Shown here: in pieces, positions 22,752-32,486 of the stretch
Numbering within the stretch: position 1 is the stretch's first letter
Layout: each line of letters begins with the position of its first letter
NCBI RefSeq assembly: GCF_003050935.1
Contig: NZ_QAOX01000002.1
Location: 806,001 to 870,000 of the forward strand
Reading direction: 5' to 3'
DNA length: 64,000 bases
From: Luteibacter sp. OK325
Lineage (GTDB): Bacteria; Pseudomonadota; Gammaproteobacteria; Xanthomonadales; Rhodanobacteraceae
Translations under genes and position numbers: made by a program
Notes under the pieces: model-generated
The model's database searches: none
The model's input: the letters and a program-made list of their open reading frames with translations, nothing else
Told to the model about the DNA's origin: nothing

Positions 22752-22791
22752 GCCCCACGCAGAACCCGATGCCCCCGGCACCCGATCCACC

Positions 22792-22889
22792 TGTGGGAGC
22801 GTGGGAGCCGATCCACCTGTGGGAGCCGATTCATCGGCGATTGTGGGAGCCGCTTCAGCGGCGATTGTGGGAGCCGCTTCAGCGGCGAT
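22792..22889 (+). repeat. REP cluster, all copies in one orientation
   Basis: Two truncated heads (CCACCTGTGGGAGC) are followed by one ATTCAT-class and two adjacent CTTCAG-class REPs, all plus-oriented. It lies between the convergent HDOD and lipoprotein genes and may serve as a bidirectional 3' end. Confidence 0.9.
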
Positions 22890-22916
22890 AGGTGCTCGCC
22901 ACGCACCCACCTGCCG

Positions 22917-23657: not shown

Positions 23658-24530
23658 ATGTTTTCCGCTCGACCGACTTCCGCTGCTGGAACAGCTGCGC
23701 TCGCGCGCCTGACCTGGCAAGATTTCGAGCACCTGCTTGCCGAGCATTACCGCGCCCAGGGTTACCGCGTGGAACACCACGCCCCCGCCACCTCGCTGAA
23801 GACACTCGCCGCCGGCGTCGACCTGCGCCTGACCCGCGGCACCGAGTCGGTGATTCTCCAGTGCAAGCACTGGGACGCCCTCGAGGTGGAGGTGCAGGAG
23901 GTCAACGAACTACTCAGCGTGATGCTCAACGAGGCGGCGACGAAGGGCATCCTCGTCACCCGCGGGCGCTTCAGCACCGAGGCGATCGGCATCCAGCGTC
24001 GCCAGCCGCGATTGCAGCTGATGGATGGCGACGTGCTGAGCGCGTTGCTCAAGCTTCCCGACCACCTCGACAGCCCCGTGGCGGGCAGCGCGGTGGCCTC
24101 ACCGGTCGCGAAGAAGAGCGCAAAGGCGGCCCGCCGCCGCCGCACGTCGTCGCACGGTTCGCGCCTGCTGCCCGTCCTGCTCGGCGTCGGCATTCTTGTC
24201 CTGCTTGGCCTGTTCGCCTGGAAGACCATGTCTCGCCACGACACGGTGGCGGACACGGCGCCACCGCCGGCGGATGCGACGCCGGCAGCCGCGCCGCTGC
24301 CCGCTCCGATTCGCGATCTGCCGCCCGCGCCACCGGCGCCGCTCAGCGGCGCCTCGGGCATCGTGTCCGTGCCAGGGTCGTCTTCCCTGCCCCCGCCGCC
24401 GACACACGAGCTGATGGAACGCCAGCGCGCGCTCGAAAAATCCGAGCGCGAGCGCGCCTCTCGGCAAAAGAGCGAAGACGGCATGAAAGTGCTCGAGCAG
24501 AATACGCGCGAGCTTGGTTCGCACGACTGA
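23658..24530 (+). CDS. Membrane-anchored Mrr-like restriction endonuclease-fold protein
   Basis: A 290-residue protein. Residues 15-135 form a Mrr-cat (PF04471-like) nuclease domain: LTWQDFEHLLAEHYRAQGYRV, then GVDLRLTRGTESVILQCKHW, which gives the Asp and Gln-x-Lys of the PD-(D/E)XK site, then ILVTRGRFSTEA. A basic linker (AKKSAKAARRRR) leads to one membrane segment (about 172-190: LLPVLLGVGILVLLGLFAW), a Pro/Ala-rich stretch and a charged coiled tail. No methyltransferase is nearby, so a classical restriction system is unlikely. A role in DNA quality control at the membrane is only a guess. Confidence 0.75.
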   Translation: MFSARPTSAAGTAALARLTWQDFEHLLAEHYRAQGYRVEHHAPATSLKTLAAGVDLRLTRGTESVILQCKHWDALEVEVQEVNELLSVMLNEAATKGILVTRGRFSTEAIGIQRRQPRLQLMDGDVLSALLKLPDHLDSPVAGSAVASPVAKKSAKAARRRRTSSHGSRLLPVLLGVGILVLLGLFAWKTMSRHDTVADTAPPPADATPAAAPLPAPIRDLPPAPPAPLSGASGIVSVPGSSSLPPPPTHELMERQRALEKSERERASRQKSEDGMKVLEQNTRELGSHD

Positions 24531-24633
24531 GGGCAGCTTCGCCGAAGGCGATCGAAACGTCGTTTCGGCATGCGTGTGGCAAGTGATTCTTTCATCGCGT
24601 TTCCTCCCGAAAACGTGCCTGTTATCGGAGGCG

Positions 24634-24661
24634 ATTCGTTCGTGCATTGTCACGAATGAAT
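24634..24661. promoter_or_regulatory. Inverted-repeat operator candidate upstream of the type III PKS gene
   Basis: ATTCGTTCGTG and CACGAATGAAT (10 of 11 positions complementary) surround a 6-base spacer, 68 bases before the PKS start. The size and symmetry fit a dimeric TetR/MarR-type repressor site. A shorter palindrome, CGAAACG-T-CGTTTCG, lies at 24553-24567. No regulator gene is adjacent. Confidence 0.5.
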
Positions 24662-24728
24662 AACACCGAGCGGCCTAGCCTTTCCTATCTCAGGGACACG
24701 GGGAAACGTCTCACACGGAAGTGAAGTC

Positions 24729-25832
24729 ATGGCCACCCTTTGCCGCCCCGCGGTAGCGGTTCCCGAGCACGTCATCACCCTCGATGACACGCTGCGACTC
24801 GCACGCGAGCTCCATGCAAAACACGAACAACTGCCGCTGGCCCTGCGCCTGATCAAGAACACGCAGGTGACCAAGCGCCATCTCGTCCAGCCGATCGAAG
24901 ACACGCTCAGGCACCCGGGATTTGAACAACGAAACGCGGTGTACGTGCGCGAAGCGAAGGCCCGCGTGCCCGACGTCGTCGCTCGCGCCCTCAAGCATGC
25001 CGACCTGACGGCCGATCGCATCGATGCAATCGTCTTCGTCTCCTGTACCGGCTTCACCATGCCCTCGCTCATCCCATGGATGATCAACGAGCTCGGCTTC
25101 CGCGCCGACACCCGTCAGCTACCCATTGCGCAGATGGGTTGTGCCGCGGGCGGTGCAGCCATCAACCGCGCCCACGATTTCTGCCTTGCCTACCCCGGCG
25201 CCCACGTGCTCGTGGTGGCATGCGAGTTCTGTTCGCTGTGCTACCAACCCACCGATCTGGAAGTGGGCAACCTGCTGTCGAACGGCCTGTTCGGCGACGC
25301 TGTCGCCGCCGCGGTCGTGCGCGGCGAGGGTGGCACGGGCGTGCGACTGGCCGGCAATGGATCGCGCCTGGTGCGCGGCACCGAAGACTGGATTTCTTAC
25401 GCGATCAAGGCGACGGGCTTTCACTTCCAGCTCGATCGCCGCGTACCGGGCACGATGGAACAGCTTGCCCCCGAACTGCGCTCCGTCGCCGCCGAATTCG
25501 GCTGGGATGCCGGCGCCCTGGATTTCTACATCATCCATGCGGGCGGTCCGCGCATCCTGGACGATCTCTCGCATTTTCTCGGCGTCGCGCCAGCCATGTT
25601 CCAGCACAGCAGGGCCACGTTGATGGAGTACGGCAACATCGCCTCCGCGGTCGTCTTAGATGCGCTTCGCCGCTTTTTCGAGGCCGGCGGTGCGTCCCCC
25701 GGCGCGCATGGCCTCATCGCGGGATTCGGTCCGGGGATCACCGCCGAAATCACCCTCGGCCACTGGTGCGGGCATCCGGAACGTCCCGCCCAGCAAACAT
25801 CCCACCTCATCCGCAAGGAAGCGATGACATGA
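24729..25832 (+). CDS. Type III polyketide synthase, RppA (tetrahydroxynaphthalene synthase) type
   Basis: A 367-residue homodimeric thiolase-fold enzyme. The Cys-His-Asn triad is Cys138 (LPIAQMGCAAGGAA), His270 (YIIHAGGPRILD) and Asn303 (MEYGNIASA), at the same numbers as I recall for Streptomyces RppA. Also matching are Cys106 (VSCTGFT), Tyr224 (WISYAIKATG) and Ala305, positions reported to affect malonyl starter use and chain length in RppA. This suggests five malonyl-CoA units giving 1,3,6,8-tetrahydroxynaphthalene or a related pyrone; the product is an inference. The stop overlaps the aldo/keto reductase start by 4 bases. An operator candidate lies at 24634-24661. The RppA partner genes for a P450 or cupin are absent. 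Confidence 0.9.
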   Translation: MATLCRPAVAVPEHVITLDDTLRLARELHAKHEQLPLALRLIKNTQVTKRHLVQPIEDTLRHPGFEQRNAVYVREAKARVPDVVARALKHADLTADRIDAIVFVSCTGFTMPSLIPWMINELGFRADTRQLPIAQMGCAAGGAAINRAHDFCLAYPGAHVLVVACEFCSLCYQPTDLEVGNLLSNGLFGDAVAAAVVRGEGGTGVRLAGNGSRLVRGTEDWISYAIKATGFHFQLDRRVPGTMEQLAPELRSVAAEFGWDAGALDFYIIHAGGPRILDDLSHFLGVAPAMFQHSRATLMEYGNIASAVVLDALRRFFEAGGASPGAHGLIAGFGPGITAEITLGHWCGHPERPAQQTSHLIRKEAMT

Positions 25833-26797
25833 GCACGAACCCCGCCCTGTCCCAGCCGTTTCTTCTCGGCGGCGATCTCCCGGTCAACCGCCTTGGCTAC
25901 GGTGCCATGCACCTCACCGGCTACGGCATGTGGGGACCGCCCGCCGACGAGCGCAACGCCATCCAGGTGCTACGCCACGCGGTATACGAGCTTGGCATCA
26001 ACTTCATCGACACCGCTGACTCTTACGGCCCAGGGGACAACGAGGAGATCATCCGCAAGGCGTTGCATCCCTACCCCAAGGATCTGGTGATCTGCACCAA
26101 GGGCGGCATGCTTCGGTCAGGCAAGCTGGACTGGATCCATGACGCACCGGGGGCACCGTACATTCAACCCCTGGGCGATCCGCGATACCTGCGCCAGCAA
26201 GTGGAGCTGAGCCTGCGCCGGCTGGGCGTGGATTGCATCGCGCTGTACCAGTTGCACAGCATCGATCCGAAGGTGCCGCTTGCCGAGAGCCTGGGTGAAC
26301 TGGTCCGCCTGCAGGAGCAGGGCAAGATCCGCCATATCGGCCTGTCGAACCAGCCGGGCGTAAGCGTCAGGCAGCTCAAGAGAGCGCAGGAGACCGCGCG
26401 CATCGTCGCCATCGAGAATCTTTACAACCTCGCCGATCGCGCGGACGACAACGTACTGGACTACGCCACAAAGCACGATATCGCGTTTATTCCGTGGTTT
26501 CCGCTCGGTCACGGCGGACTTGTCGGGATCGGTAGCGCGCTGGAACCCATCGCGAAGCGTTGGAAGATCACCCCCTCGCAACTCGCGCTCGCCTGGTTGC
26601 TACACCGCTCACCGAACATCCTCCTGATACCCGGCACCACCTCGGTCCCGCATCTGAAGGAGAACGCCGTTGCGACGCAAGTGGTCCTTAGTCGGGACGA
26701 CCTGCGCTCGATCGCCAGGGCCGTCGATCAGGCAGGCCTACCCAGTTGGCGCCCCGTGCGGAAGGCGCCGGCGCGGTCCGCTGCCGCCGCCCACTGA
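25829..26797 (+). CDS. Aldo/keto reductase, partner of the type III PKS
   Basis: A 322-residue (beta/alpha)8 NADPH-dependent oxidoreductase. The catalytic tetrad is visible as Asp61 and Tyr66 (NFIDTADSYG), Lys91 (DLVICTKGG) and His143 (LYQLHSID). The cofactor-binding end is IPGTTSVPHLKENAVA. The start shares ATGA with the PKS stop, so the two are co-translated. Context suggests it reduces a keto group of the polyketide or of a derived naphthol or quinone, but a general aldehyde reductase role is possible. Confidence 0.85.
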   Translation: MSTNPALSQPFLLGGDLPVNRLGYGAMHLTGYGMWGPPADERNAIQVLRHAVYELGINFIDTADSYGPGDNEEIIRKALHPYPKDLVICTKGGMLRSGKLDWIHDAPGAPYIQPLGDPRYLRQQVELSLRRLGVDCIALYQLHSIDPKVPLAESLGELVRLQEQGKIRHIGLSNQPGVSVRQLKRAQETARIVAIENLYNLADRADDNVLDYATKHDIAFIPWFPLGHGGLVGIGSALEPIAKRWKITPSQLALAWLLHRSPNILLIPGTTSVPHLKENAVATQVVLSRDDLRSIARAVDQAGLPSWRPVRKAPARSAAAAH

Positions 26798-26819
26798 TGC
26801 CACCTGCCCGGAGCCTCCC

Positions 26820-27239
26820 ATGTCGACACTGCATCCCAACATCGCCACGCTCAGGTCCATCTACGAGGATCTCCGCCGCATCGAACGCCATGCCGACGAG
26901 GACATGGTCCTGCATACCGCCCAGCGCCAGGCCGGAGACCCTGGCCGCATTTACGGCAAGGCCGCGGTGGTCGAAAAGATGCAGGCACTCCTTCGTGAGA
27001 GCGGGCGAACGTTGACCATGAGGGTGGACAGTATCGTCGCCAACGACTATTTCGGTGCCGTCCTTGGCAGCATTCGCGCCCGACGGGGAGGCAGCGAGAT
27101 CGGCATGCCGTTCTGCGGCCTGTGGCGCTTTCGTGACGGATGCATCCTTGAGCACTGGGAGAACTCGTACGACATTGCGGAACTCGATGCCTTCATGCGT
27201 GGCGATGCCCCGGAAGAGAGTACCTGGGTACGAGGCTGA
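26820..27239 (+). CDS. SnoaL-like (NTF2-fold) protein of the PKS cluster
   Basis: A 139-residue single-domain protein. The blocks RIYGKAAVVEKMQALL, AVLGSIRARRGG and PFCGLWRFRDGCILEHWENS fit the SnoaL/NTF2-like cone fold, used by polyketide cyclases and small isomerases. GGAG stands seven bases before the ATG, 22 bases after the reductase stop. In this setting it may steer cyclisation or isomerisation of the PKS product; that is inference from the neighbours. Confidence 0.75.
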   Translation: MSTLHPNIATLRSIYEDLRRIERHADEDMVLHTAQRQAGDPGRIYGKAAVVEKMQALLRESGRTLTMRVDSIVANDYFGAVLGSIRARRGGSEIGMPFCGLWRFRDGCILEHWENSYDIAELDAFMRGDAPEESTWVRG

Positions 27240-27338
27240 CCCAGGGTTGTGCGGCGCAAATAGGGCCCGTTCTTTCACGCCGACGCAATCCCCTGCCGCA
27301 TACGCTCAAGGGAGTCCCCGTCGCCTGGAAAGCTCCCC

Positions 27339-29714
27339 ATGTCCGAGACGCTCGCGCCCGACCTCCTACGCCGCATGCACGCCTACTGGCGCGCCGCCAA
27401 CTACCTCACCGTTGGCCAGATCTACCTCCGTGACAACCCCATGCTGGACGAGCCCCTCGCCAGGGAGCACCTCAAGCATCGCCTGCTCGGTCACTGGGGT
27501 ACGACCACGGGCCTGAACTTCATTTACACCCATCTCAATCGCGCGATCGTCGAGCGCGATCTCAACATGATCTACGTGATCGGCCCCGGTCATGGCGGCC
27601 CCGGCCTGGTGGCACACACCTACCTCGAAGGTTCGTATACCGAGATTTATCCGCATATCGACCGCAGCGTAGCCGGCATGCGCGAGCTGTTCCGCCAGTT
27701 TTCCTGGCCTTATGGCATCCCCAGCCATGTGGCGCCGGAAACGCCGGGTTCCATCCACGAAGGTGGCGAACTCGGGTATTCGCTGTCACATGCCTTCGGC
27801 GCGGCCTTCGACAATCCCGACCTGATCGTGAGTTGTGTTGTCGGCGACGGCGAAGCCGAAACCGGCGCGCTGGCTACCGGCTGGCATTCGAACAAGTTCC
27901 TCAATCCCGTGCGCGACGGCGCGGTCCTGCCGATCCTCCACCTCAACGGCTTCAAGATCGCCAATCCCACGGTGCTCGCGCGCATCGAACCGGAAGAACT
28001 GCGTGACCTCATGCGCGGCTACGGCTATGAGCCGCACTTCGTCGAAGGCCACGAGTTCGAGCCGATGCACCAGGCCTTCGCTGCGGCGCTCGATACCTGC
28101 CTGGACGAGATCCGGCGTATCCAGACCGAAGCGCGCGAGGGCAAGGCCTCCGAGGCGAAGCGTCCGCGCTGGCCGATGATCGTGCTGCGCAGCCCCAAGG
28201 GCTGGACCGGCCCGAAGGTGGTCGATGGCAAGCCGGTGGAAGGTACGTGGCGCGCGCATCAGGTGCCCATCGACAAGTTCGACAACGAGGGTCACCTGAA
28301 GATTCTCGAAGACTGGATGAAGAGCTACGACGCCCACGAGCTGTTCGACGAGCGCGGGCAGTTCCGCGAGGAATACGCTTCGCTTGCGCCGCGCGGCCAG
28401 CGACGCATGGGCATGAATCCGCATGCCAATGGCGGCTTGCTGCTGAAGCAATTGCACATGCCGCACTTCCGTCCCTTCGCCGAGGACGTCAGGACACCCG
28501 GCGACCACAAGGCCGAAGCGACGCGCGTGCTCGGTAAGTTCCTGCGCGGCGTGATGCAGCAGAACATGCAGACCTTCCGCGTATTCGGTCCGGATGAGAC
28601 GGCGTCGAACCGCCTGGAAGCGATCTACGAAGTCAGCGGCAAGACCTGGCTGGCCGAGTACGAAGGCGTCGACGAGAACCTCTCGCCCGAGGGCCGCGTG
28701 ATGGAGGTGCTCAGCGAGCACCAGTGCCAGGGCTGGCTCGAAGGCTACCTGCTCACCGGCAGGCACGGCTTCTTTTCCTGCTACGAAGCCTTCATCCACA
28801 TCATCGATTCGATGTTCAACCAGCACGCGAAGTGGCTCAAGGTCACGCGCAAGATGTCCTGGCGGCCGCCGATCGCTTCGCTCAATTATCTGTTGAGCTC
28901 GCATGTGTGGCACCAGGATCACAACGGCTTCTCGCACCAGGATCCGGGCTTCATCGACCATGTCGCCAACAAGAAGTCCGAGATCGTGCGCGTCTACCTG
29001 CCGCCGGATGCGAACTGCCTGCTCTCGGTCGCCGACCATTGCCTGCGTAGCCGGCACTACGTCAACGTGATCATCGCCGGCAAGCAGCCGGACTGGCAGT
29101 GGCTCGATATGGAAAGCGCCGTGCGCCATTGCACCGCTGGTGCAGGCATCTGGTCGTGGGCCGGTCGTGGCGAGGAAGATCCCGATGTCGTGATGGCATC
29201 CGCCGGCGATGCACCCACCGTGGAAGTGCTCGCCGCGATCATGCTGTTGCGCGACTACGTGCCGGACATCCGCATTCGCATGGTGAACGTGGTGGACCTG
29301 ATGTCGCTGGAAACCCCGGACGAACATCCGCACGGCATGGACGACGACGTCTTCGACGACCTGTTCACCAGGGACAAGCCAGTCATCTTCGCCTTCCATG
29401 GTTACCCGGGCATCATCCACAAGCTCACTTACCGCCGGCACAACCACGACAACATCCACGTGCGTGGGTACAAGGAAGAAGGCACGACCACGACCGCGCT
29501 GGACATGATGGTGCTGAACAACATGGACCGCTTCCAGCTGGCACTCGACGTGATCAATCGCGTGCCGCGTCTTGCCGGCGAACGCGAGAAAGCCACGCAG
29601 CGCTACTGGTCGGACATCCAGCGCCACAAGCTCTACGTGAGTGAACACGGGCAGGACCTGCCTGATGTGCGCGACTGGCAGTGGAAAGCCGAGCCCGAGG
29701 AGCTCGCGGAGTGA
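27339..29714 (+). CDS. xfp: Xylulose-5-phosphate/fructose-6-phosphate phosphoketolase
   Basis: Thiamine-diphosphate enzyme that splits xylulose-5-P (or fructose-6-P) with phosphate to acetyl-phosphate and glyceraldehyde-3-P (or erythrose-4-P). The 791-residue protein shows [27 protein letters not shown], the ThDP motif [10 protein letters not shown]...SNKFLNP, and [26 protein letters not shown] precedes the ATG. The stop overlaps the acetate kinase start by 4 bases, so acetyl-phosphate passes to the next enzyme. This makes a short acetate/ATP-yielding branch of the pentose phosphate pathway. Confidence 0.97.
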
Positions 29715-30748: not shown

Positions 30749-30769
30749 CTGGTAGGAGGCTGTGCTTTT

Positions 30770-30964
30770 TGTGGGAGCCGATTCATCGGCGATGCTCTAT
30801 GTGGGAGCCGATTCATCGGCGAATGGGTGCTCGCAACACCCTGGCGGCCGCTTCGCGGCCATCGCCGATAAATCGGCTCCTACATGGAGCCATCGCCGCT
30901 GAAGCGGCTCCCACACTGAGCTGGCTACGGAGCGGCTGTATGTGGGAGCCGATTCATCGGCGAT
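30770..30964. repeat. REP cluster with a shared three-hairpin composite
   Basis: Two plus-oriented ATTCAT-class copies are followed by a CGGCCGCTTCGCGGCC hairpin, a minus-oriented ATTTAT variant, a minus-oriented CTTCAG copy and a final plus-oriented ATTCAT copy. The stretch around the CGC hairpin (CACCCTGGCGGCCGCTTCGC) recurs in the 33594-33879 cluster. It ends 5 bases from the fumarase stop. Confidence 0.9.
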
Positions 30965-30968
30965 GCCC

Positions 30969-32486
30969 TCAGACAACAACCACCGGAATCTTCCCGATCC
31001 GCGACTGCCATTCCTTCGGCCCGGAGATATGCACCGACGAACCAGCACTGTCGACAGCCACCGTCACCGGCATGTCCTTCACCTCGAACTCGTAGATCGC
31101 TTCCATACCGAGGTCTTCAAAGGCCAGCACACGCGAAGCCTTGATCGCCTTCGACACCAGGTAAGCGGCGCCACCCACGGCCATCAGGTAGACCGCCTTG
31201 TTATCGCGAATCGCGTCGATAGCGGTGGGGCCACGCTCGCTCTTACCGACCATGCCAAGCAGCCCGGTCGTCTCGAGCATCTGCCGCGTGAACTTGTCCA
31301 TGCGCGTGGCCGTGGTCGGGCCAGCGGGACCGACCACTTCGTCACGCACAGGATCCACCGGACCCACGTAGTAGATGAAGCGATTGGTGAAGTCGACCGG
31401 CAGCGCTTCGCCTCGGTTGAGCATGTCGATCATGCGCTTGTGCGCGGCATCGCGGCCGGTGAGCAGCTTGCCGTTGAGCAGGATGGTCTCGCCCGGCTTC
31501 CAGCTCTGCACTTCTTCGCGAGTGATCGTGTCGAGGTTCACGCGACGACCCTTCGAGGAGTCGTAGGTGAGCTTCGGCCAGTCTTCCAGCGACGGCGGAT
31601 CGAGCGCGACCGGACCCGAACCGTCGAGCACGAAGTGCGCGTGGCGCGTGGCGGCGCAGTTCGGGATCAGCGCGACCGGCAGGTTGGCTGCGTGGGTCGG
31701 GTAATCCTTCACCTTGATGTCGAGCACGGTGGTGAGGCCACCCAGGCCCTGCGCGCCGATGCCGAGCGCGTTGACCTTCTCGTACAACTCAAGGCGCAGC
31801 TCTTCGGCGCGGTTGGACGGGCCACGGGCGATCAGGTCGACGATGTCGATCGGCTCCATGAGCGCCTCCTTCGCCAGCAGCATTGCTTTCTCGGCGGTGC
31901 CACCGATGCCGATGCCGAGCATGCCCGGCGGGCACCAGCCGGCGCCCATCGTCGGCACGGTCTTCAGCACCCAGTCCACGATGGAGTCGGAGGGATTGAG
32001 CATGGCGAACTTGGACTTGGCTTCCGAACCGCCGCCCTTCGCGGCGACGATGACGTCGAGCTTGTCCCCGGGAACGATCGTCACGTTGACCACGGCCGGC
32101 GTGTTGTCACGCGTATTCATGCGCTTGCCGGCGGGATCAGCGAGCACGGAAGCGCGCAGCTTGTTGTCCGGATGGTTATAGGCGCGACGCACGCCTTCGT
32201 TGACCATGTCCTCGACGCCCATGCTGGCGTCGTCCCAGCGCACGTTCATGCCCACCTTGAGGAAGACGGTGACGATGCCGGTGTCCTGGCAGATCGGCCG
32301 GTGGCCCTCGGCGCACATGCGCGAGTTGATGAGGATCTGGGCGATGGCGTCCTTGGCAGCCGGAGACTCTTCGCGCTCGTAGGCGGCGGACAGGTTCCGG
32401 ATGTAGTCGACCGGGTGGTAGTACGAGATGTACTGGAGGGCGTCTGCGACGCTCTGGATGAGGTCGTCCTGCTTGATCGAGGTCAT
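30969..32486 (-). CDS. Fumarate hydratase class I (iron-sulfur type)
   Basis: Hydrates fumarate to malate in the TCA cycle using an oxygen-sensitive [4Fe-4S] cluster. The 505-residue protein has the three cluster cysteines at Cys66 (HRPICQDTG), Cys185 (GAGWCPPG) and Cys277 (LIPNCAATRH). Both the N-terminal alpha and the C-terminal beta domain (KLLTGRDAAHKRM, YYVGPVDPVRDEVVGPAGPT) are in one chain, as in FumA/FumB. The ATG at 32486 starts the normal N-terminus (MTSIKQDDLIQSVADALQ). It is divergent from the thioredoxin gene. Confidence 0.95.
   Translation of the reverse strand: MTSIKQDDLIQSVADALQYISYYHPVDYIRNLSAAYEREESPAAKDAIAQILINSRMCAEGHRPICQDTGIVTVFLKVGMNVRWDDASMGVEDMVNEGVRRAYNHPDNKLRASVLADPAGKRMNTRDNTPAVVNVTIVPGDKLDVIVAAKGGGSEAKSKFAMLNPSDSIVDWVLKTVPTMGAGWCPPGMLGIGIGGTAEKAMLLAKEALMEPIDIVDLIARGPSNRAEELRLELYEKVNALGIGAQGLGGLTTVLDIKVKDYPTHAANLPVALIPNCAATRHAHFVLDGSGPVALDPPSLEDWPKLTYDSSKGRRVNLDTITREEVQSWKPGETILLNGKLLTGRDAAHKRMIDMLNRGEALPVDFTNRFIYYVGPVDPVRDEVVGPAGPTTATRMDKFTRQMLETTGLLGMVGKSERGPTAIDAIRDNKAVYLMAVGGAAYLVSKAIKASRVLAFEDLGMEAIYEFEVKDMPVTVAVDSAGSSVHISGPKEWQSRIGKIPVVVV

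Follow-up and report, generated by a model that had tools for sequence, protein, structure and literature searches.

A PKS–AKR–SnoaL_2 cassette in Luteibacter and a candidate reductive branch of bacterial tetrahydroxynaphthalene metabolism

What does a type III polyketide synthase (PKS) of the RppA grade make when its partners are reductive? Luteibacter sp. OK325 (Rhodanobacteraceae) raises this question in a stretch of 64,000 nucleotides (contig NZ_QAOX01000002.1, positions 806,001 to 870,000; hereafter the window), where such a PKS is followed by an aldo/keto reductase (AKR) and a SnoaL_2 protein. Streptomyces rppA clusters have oxidative partners, a cupin and a P450 (PMC8773403, excerpt), whereas those in the Luteibacter cassette are of reductive type. 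Here we report that the three genes are a real, inserted and co-conserved set. They form a variant of the RppA-type cluster, with reductive in place of oxidative partners, and our best guess at its product is a deoxygenated naphthol.

A co-conserved three-gene insertion

Across 197 genomes sampled from the family, a PKS match at E ≤ 1e-10 was found in eight, four of RppA grade (78–100% identity) and four remote (31–33%). A SnoaL profile matched five of the 197, namely the four genomes with an RppA-grade PKS and one further Luteibacter genome (G010); the co-occurrence of SnoaL with RppA-grade PKS had a Fisher P of 8e-8, not corrected for relatedness. The four intact loci belong to three genera, occupy different sites and all keep the order PKS–AKR–(tailoring)–SnoaL. 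The window has the bare PKS–AKR–SnoaL, while two genomes (G098 and G147) have an O-methyltransferase (OMT) gene in the order PKS–AKR–OMT–SnoaL. Luteibacter rhizovicinus, of the same genus as the window (genome G011; locus L010, record NZ_SMCS01000007.1), has PKS–AKR–NmrA reductase–DUF6081–SnoaL–berberine-bridge-like oxidase (BBE). Its cluster lies at another site, and G011 has no phosphoketolase match. The first-pass annotation had proposed the trio as a unit and suggested searching for its co-conservation in Rhodanobacteraceae; run on these genomes, that search bore the proposal out in 4/4 intact loci.

The insertion was delimited by blastn against the empty site of another genome (G017), in which the stretches matching window positions 24001–24534 and 27274–27700 lie 7 nt apart. 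Besides the three genes, the inserted ~2.74 kb comprises 194 nt on the upstream side and 34 nt on the downstream side. A phosphoketolase gene was found in 20 of 23 genus genomes, and in 17 of these 20 loci an Mrr-like gene lies directly upstream of it, with 78–147 nt between the matches. The other three are G016, which has no Mrr match, and the window genome (G000) and G010, both with extra genes. At the same site, G010 holds a remnant (L032:6884-8441) in which one open frame joins the first ~26 codons of the PKS to the second half of the AKR and then to SnoaL. Its SnoaL is 76% identical to the window protein and seems to have been kept without its partners. The cassette may have spread horizontally among Rhodanobacteraceae.

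The insertion holds only PKS, AKR and SnoaL, with no cupin or P450 gene, and in the relatives no such gene separates PKS from SnoaL. The cassette thus differs from oxidative tetrahydroxynaphthalene (THN) pigment clusters, with no adjacent cupin or P450 and with relatives that carry OMT, or NmrA, DUF6081 and BBE. For contrast, we assembled 20 other type III PKS loci of 9–17 kb (13 of 28 plasmid records plus 7 other matches), 18 of them RppA-grade. At E ≤ 0.01, cluster AKR or SnoaL queries matched none of the 20, including the 18 RppA-grade loci. Annotated neighbours there included cupin, P450, aminotransferase, methyltransferase and prenyltransferase genes; in two loci an NTF2-family gene is annotated ~4 kb upstream, with no match to the cluster SnoaL. 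On a plasmid of Streptomyces sp. YIM 121038 (L058:7235-11074), an RppA-grade PKS of 61% identity has two MaoC dehydratase genes behind it and methyltransferase genes on either side. Type III PKS chemistry may have a further dehydrating branch here.

The polyketide synthase, the reductase and the SnoaL_2 protein

The encoded proteins carry, in order, the Pfam domains chalcone/stilbene synthase N and C, Aldo_ket_red and SnoaL_2. The best solved relative of the PKS was 1u0m (E 4.9e-171, gapless over residues 1–347), labelled 'putative polyketide synthase' in the database, which we take to be the Streptomyces coelicolor THN synthase. The PKS has C106, C138, C168, Y224, H270, N303 and A305; at residue 184 it has Ser, against Cys in 1u0m. 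It shares 61–73% identity with 18 actinobacterial RppA-grade proteins, the grade of PKS found in Streptomyces rppA, HPQ-melanin and flaviolin clusters. Thirteen checked active-site positions are identical in the four family PKSs and these 18, with one exception, position 171 in L076. The four PKSs from Rhodanobacteraceae formed one group (100/100 support) in a tree of 24 rows, and within that group L013 paired with L014 (87/95). This close homology makes THN the likely product. The first-pass annotation had read Cys138-His270-Asn303 with Cys106, Tyr224 and Ala305 as the RppA pattern; all six residues are present, but they do not diagnose a THN synthase, since the naringenin chalcone synthase Ncs of Streptomyces clavuligerus has the same ones (PMC4640377, PMC8773403, excerpts).

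The class, phylum and order samples (369, 398 and 240 genomes) gave no PKS match outside the family at E ≤ 1e-60; the matches in these samples were the window genome only, or the window genome and G011. Among plasmid records, 24 had a PKS match at 60–80% identity, from Streptomyces (22) and Embleya (2). A single acquisition of the PKS from Actinomycetota would fit this distribution.

The second protein belongs to the AKR superfamily, with an Aldo_ket_red domain and the Asp-Tyr-Lys-His tetrad, placed by motif at D61, Y66, K91 and H143. Its best solved relatives were AKR13B2 and pyridoxine 4-dehydrogenase, not plant polyketide reductases, which sets it apart from chalcone reductase. The best NCBIfam model, PRK10376, scored 266 bits, under its cut-off of 280. 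Other AKRs of the same broad type (45–53% identity) are present in 23/23 genus genomes, two of them in the window genome. A single clade (100/100) unites the four cluster AKRs, with L013 and L014 again grouped inside it (92/92), matching the PKS tree. All four have a 10-residue insertion between the catalytic Lys91 and His143 (window AKR residues 103–112) that is missing from 15 other AKRs. The residue after the catalytic His is Ser in cluster AKRs versus Arg in 10 of the 15; the other five differ across the segment. Given this insertion, seen in the cluster AKRs alone among those compared, and the two further AKRs of the type in the genome, the cluster enzyme likely has a different substrate. 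Loops in this region shape the substrate pocket of AKRs, which makes a changed and bulkier substrate reasonable to expect. On plasmids of Gluconobacter (L057:1519-3359) and Deinococcus (L113:382-2319), AKRs of the same broad group lie beside NTF2-like, SRPBCC or ester-cyclase genes, with no PKS nearby.

The third protein matched Pfam SnoaL_2 at 36.8 bits (cut-off 27). Five of six members matched the Pfam SnoaL cyclase model at E ≤ 10, the window protein at 13.8 bits (cut-off 28.4). Profile searches of the PDB placed IdmH and 1tuh nearest, followed by StmD/NgnD, TerC, AclR and unnamed NTF2-like proteins. When aligned with 6hnn, the window protein has Glu114, His112 and Gly100 at the positions of IdmH Thr131, His129 and Asn117, which are equivalent to the catalytic Asp121, His119 and His107 of SnoaL (PMC6830212, excerpt). 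Glu114 is present in 7/7 cluster-type rows (at least 44% identity) and 0/7 distant rows. Given this strictness at the Asp121 position, the acid/base carboxylate is probably retained as Glu in cluster-type SnoaL. The cassette protein resembles the SnoaL and IdmH cyclases in its SnoaL_2 match above cut-off, its carboxylate at the Asp121 position and its His at the His119 position, the last being Tyr in the Pseudomonas graminis copy. Unlike them, it has Glu for Asp, no His107 equivalent and a Pfam SnoaL score below cut-off.

Viral contigs, plasmids and phages yielded no SnoaL relatives in our scans. Outside the family, cluster-type SnoaL genes were seen in two settings. In P. graminis an orphan copy of 49% identity lies among unrelated genes (L011:6001-6423), and in a Pseudonocardiales metagenome-assembled genome (MAG) one stands directly after a short-chain dehydrogenase/reductase (SDR) gene and before an amidohydrolase gene, another reductase–SnoaL pair (L012:244-2593). 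Neither genome had a PKS match, in a search without a positive control. The SnoaL model matched 8 of 276 genomes drawn around this MAG at E ≤ 1e-12, the MAG itself strongly and the others at 26–30% identity to the window protein.

A possible reductive route and its alternatives

Reading the three proteins together, we tentatively favour, at a little short of even confidence, a mini-cluster for a reductive branch of THN metabolism that would yield a deoxygenated naphthol and has been spread horizontally. By close homology, the PKS would condense five malonyl-CoA to a pentaketide and THN. The dedicated NAD(P)H-dependent AKR would then reduce one ring ketone, either of the keto form of THN, giving a scytalone-like tetralone, or of a pre-aromatic intermediate. 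The SnoaL_2 protein, with Glu114 as acid/base, would take off water and restore aromaticity. The net product would be a naphthol one oxygen short of THN, for example 1,3,8-trihydroxynaphthalene, or 1,8-dihydroxynaphthalene (DHN) after a second round. Relatives may decorate it further, by O-methylation at two loci and, in L. rhizovicinus, through the NmrA-type reductase, DUF6081 and BBE. The first-pass annotation had foreseen a different naphthol, reduced or re-cyclised; a reduced one is our best reading.

The minimum to deoxygenate a polyhydroxynaphthalene is a THN-type PKS, one ketoreductase and one acid/base enzyme of NTF2 fold. Fungi deoxygenate THN towards 1,8-DHN with a reductase and scytalone dehydratase (PMC8788799, excerpt), and the cassette would share with this DHN-melanin pathway (type I PKS, 4HNR/3HNR, scytalone dehydratase) the logic of reducing THN and then dehydrating it. 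The NTF2-like proteins listed in PMC3924330 (excerpt) include both SnoaL and scytalone dehydratase. Unlike the fungal pathway, the cassette has a type III PKS, a reductase of AKR type and a SnoaL_2 protein with no detectable sequence relation to scytalone dehydratase. A bolder and rather unlikely extension would make it a bacterial equivalent, reached by convergence and packed into 2.7 kb, of the DHN-melanin route in fungi, mobile among Rhodanobacteraceae, with THN made in a single step by the type III PKS, AKR standing in for the SDR naphthol reductase and SnoaL_2 for scytalone dehydratase, and leading to 1,3,8-trihydroxynaphthalene or 1,8-DHN that relatives methylate or oxidise.

Several findings weigh against the reductive route. 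The PKS product is assigned by homology, and Ncs warns against such inference. Fungal naphthol reductases are SDRs. No scytalone dehydratase was named among the 55 PDB sequences that the SnoaL profile matched at E ≤ 10, nor was its Pfam family among the SnoaL matches at that threshold. The SnoaL His107 equivalent is not retained (Gly100). The SnoaL tree gave no support for grouping the five cluster copies together (1 change in 6% of bootstrap trees); the orphan P. graminis protein fell among them, and congruence with the PKS and AKR trees was not shown. The AlphaFold2 model of SnoaL, built from 4 sequences, was poor (predicted local distance difference test score, pLDDT, 54.7) and too weak for pocket comparison; Foldseek with it returned 683 matches at E ≤ 10 and none at E ≤ 0.001, topped by NTF2-like folds of the ketosteroid isomerase and SnoaL-like kinds, which we did not use as evidence. 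Since AKRs of this broad group adjoin NTF2-like genes where there is no PKS, as in Gluconobacter and Deinococcus, the AKR–SnoaL pair alone is not naphthol-specific. Base composition gave no foreign mark (GC 0.62–0.65 in the genes versus 0.65 in the window).

An unlikely alternative, though the strongest rival, is that the AKR reduces a released linear or half-cyclised polyketide, which SnoaL then cyclises to another ring pattern, so that THN is never an intermediate. The nearest solved relatives of the SnoaL protein include the cyclases IdmH and StmD, besides NgnD, TerC, AclR and unnamed NTF2-like proteins. Plant chalcone reductase is an AKR that partners a type III PKS, and the cassette likewise pairs such a PKS with a reductase gene. 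Its pairing with chalcone synthase (CHS) is known (PMC8551677, excerpt). The plant system differs from the cassette in its starter and AKR group, and the cassette has an extra SnoaL protein and is a bacterial operon. Against prior reduction stand the checked PKS positions, which are those of RppA-grade enzymes beside cupin/P450 genes, so that the PKS should close both rings itself, and the nearness of the AKR to AKR13B2 and pyridoxine 4-dehydrogenase rather than to chalcone reductase.

It is quite improbable, in our view, that SnoaL is non-catalytic and shepherds an unstable intermediate from PKS to AKR. The NTF2-like ActVI-ORFA, which prevents shunt products and is held to be an unlikely cyclase (PMC11315284, excerpt), offers a precedent, and the missing His107 would agree with such a role; the strictness of Glu114 in the cluster-type group and its absence from distant rows suggest chemistry instead. 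A chalcone-type PKS with an aromatic starter, whose product the AKR would turn into a deoxychalcone, we consider very unlikely. Ncs, which shares the diagnostic residues, is 74–76% identical to two RppAs in one source (PMC4640377, excerpt), and 68 and 75% in another (PMC8773403, excerpt). Little counted against this proposal. A chance neighbourhood of three unrelated genes is scarcely credible and was rejected: AKR and NTF2-like families are both large and common, but the genes are co-conserved in 4/4 intact loci at different sites, with the same inner group in PKS and AKR trees and a SnoaL in just one other of the 197 family genomes.

If the reductive route is correct, it would place a reductive fate of bacterial THN alongside the known oxidative fates, and DHN-type pigments might then be obtained from bacteria. 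To our knowledge, neither the AKR nor the SnoaL_2 family is known for THN deoxygenation. We found no description of such a PKS–AKR–SnoaL set in the open-licence literature (titles and abstract openings, among the matches listed). The set is small enough for whole expression, which would directly test deoxygenation of a type III PKS product.

Insertion site, upstream repeat and neighbouring features

The gene layout of the first-pass annotation was reproduced (Table 1): all three genes are on the + strand, PKS and AKR overlap by ATGA at 25829-25832, and 22 nt separate AKR from SnoaL.

Table 1. Coordinates of the cassette, its parts and its native flanks in the window
Feature	Position	Strand	Basis
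Insertion (cassette) between Mrr-like gene and phosphoketolase	24535–27273	.	blastn against empty site of G017
Type III PKS, RppA/THN-synthase grade, 367 aa	24729–25832	+	ORF list, Pfam, homology, tree
AKR, 322 aa, tetrad by motif D61, Y66, K91, H143	25829–26797	+	
AKR 10-residue insertion (residues 103–112)	26135–26164	+	AKR alignment
SnoaL_2/NTF2-like protein, 139 aa	26820–27239	+	Pfam, profile searches
SnoaL Glu114 codon	27159–27161	+	Profile alignment with 6hnn
11-nt inverted repeat, 6-nt spacer, upstream of PKS and within insertion; operator status doubtful	24634–24661	.	
Left flank, native, outside cassette: Mrr-type restriction-endonuclease-like gene	23658–24530	+	
Right flank, native, outside cassette: phosphoketolase, then acetate kinase	27339–29714	+	

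An 11-bp near-perfect inverted repeat had been put forward as the operator of the cassette. The repeat is real (arms 24634-24644 and 24651-24661, 10 of 11 pairs) but ordinary. Of 1,000 mononucleotide shuffles of the 198-base region, 28 contained an equally good repeat, as did 24 of 323 tiles of equal length from the window. Alignment of the sequence upstream of the three other intact clusters showed no intact copy, and neither did that of the G010 remnant. The operator proposal is therefore weak, although the repeat, lying within the insertion, could still serve the cassette. The insertion contains no regulator gene, and no sigma-70-like promoter or terminator was matched in 24500-27400.

No transposon ends were recognised (no insertion sequence search was made): neither flank contained direct repeats of at least 10 nt, and the two end regions compared had no exact match longer than 6 nt in common. 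A link to the downstream phosphoketolase and acetate kinase was rejected, as 18 of the 20 phosphoketolase genomes have neither cassette nor remnant.

A secreted-looking protein of ~185-190 aa lies beside the cluster in two loci (L010:1073-1630 and L014:10265-10834) and, shortened, beside the G010 remnant (L032:7129-7479). It had no Pfam match at E ≤ 0.001 in the two copies tested and was not found in the window or L015. Elsewhere in the window, 22780-22910 and 30769-31050 hold short recurring repeats that read 'WEPIHRR' and 'ADESAPT' in translations of several frames and are perhaps REP-like (repetitive extragenic palindromic).

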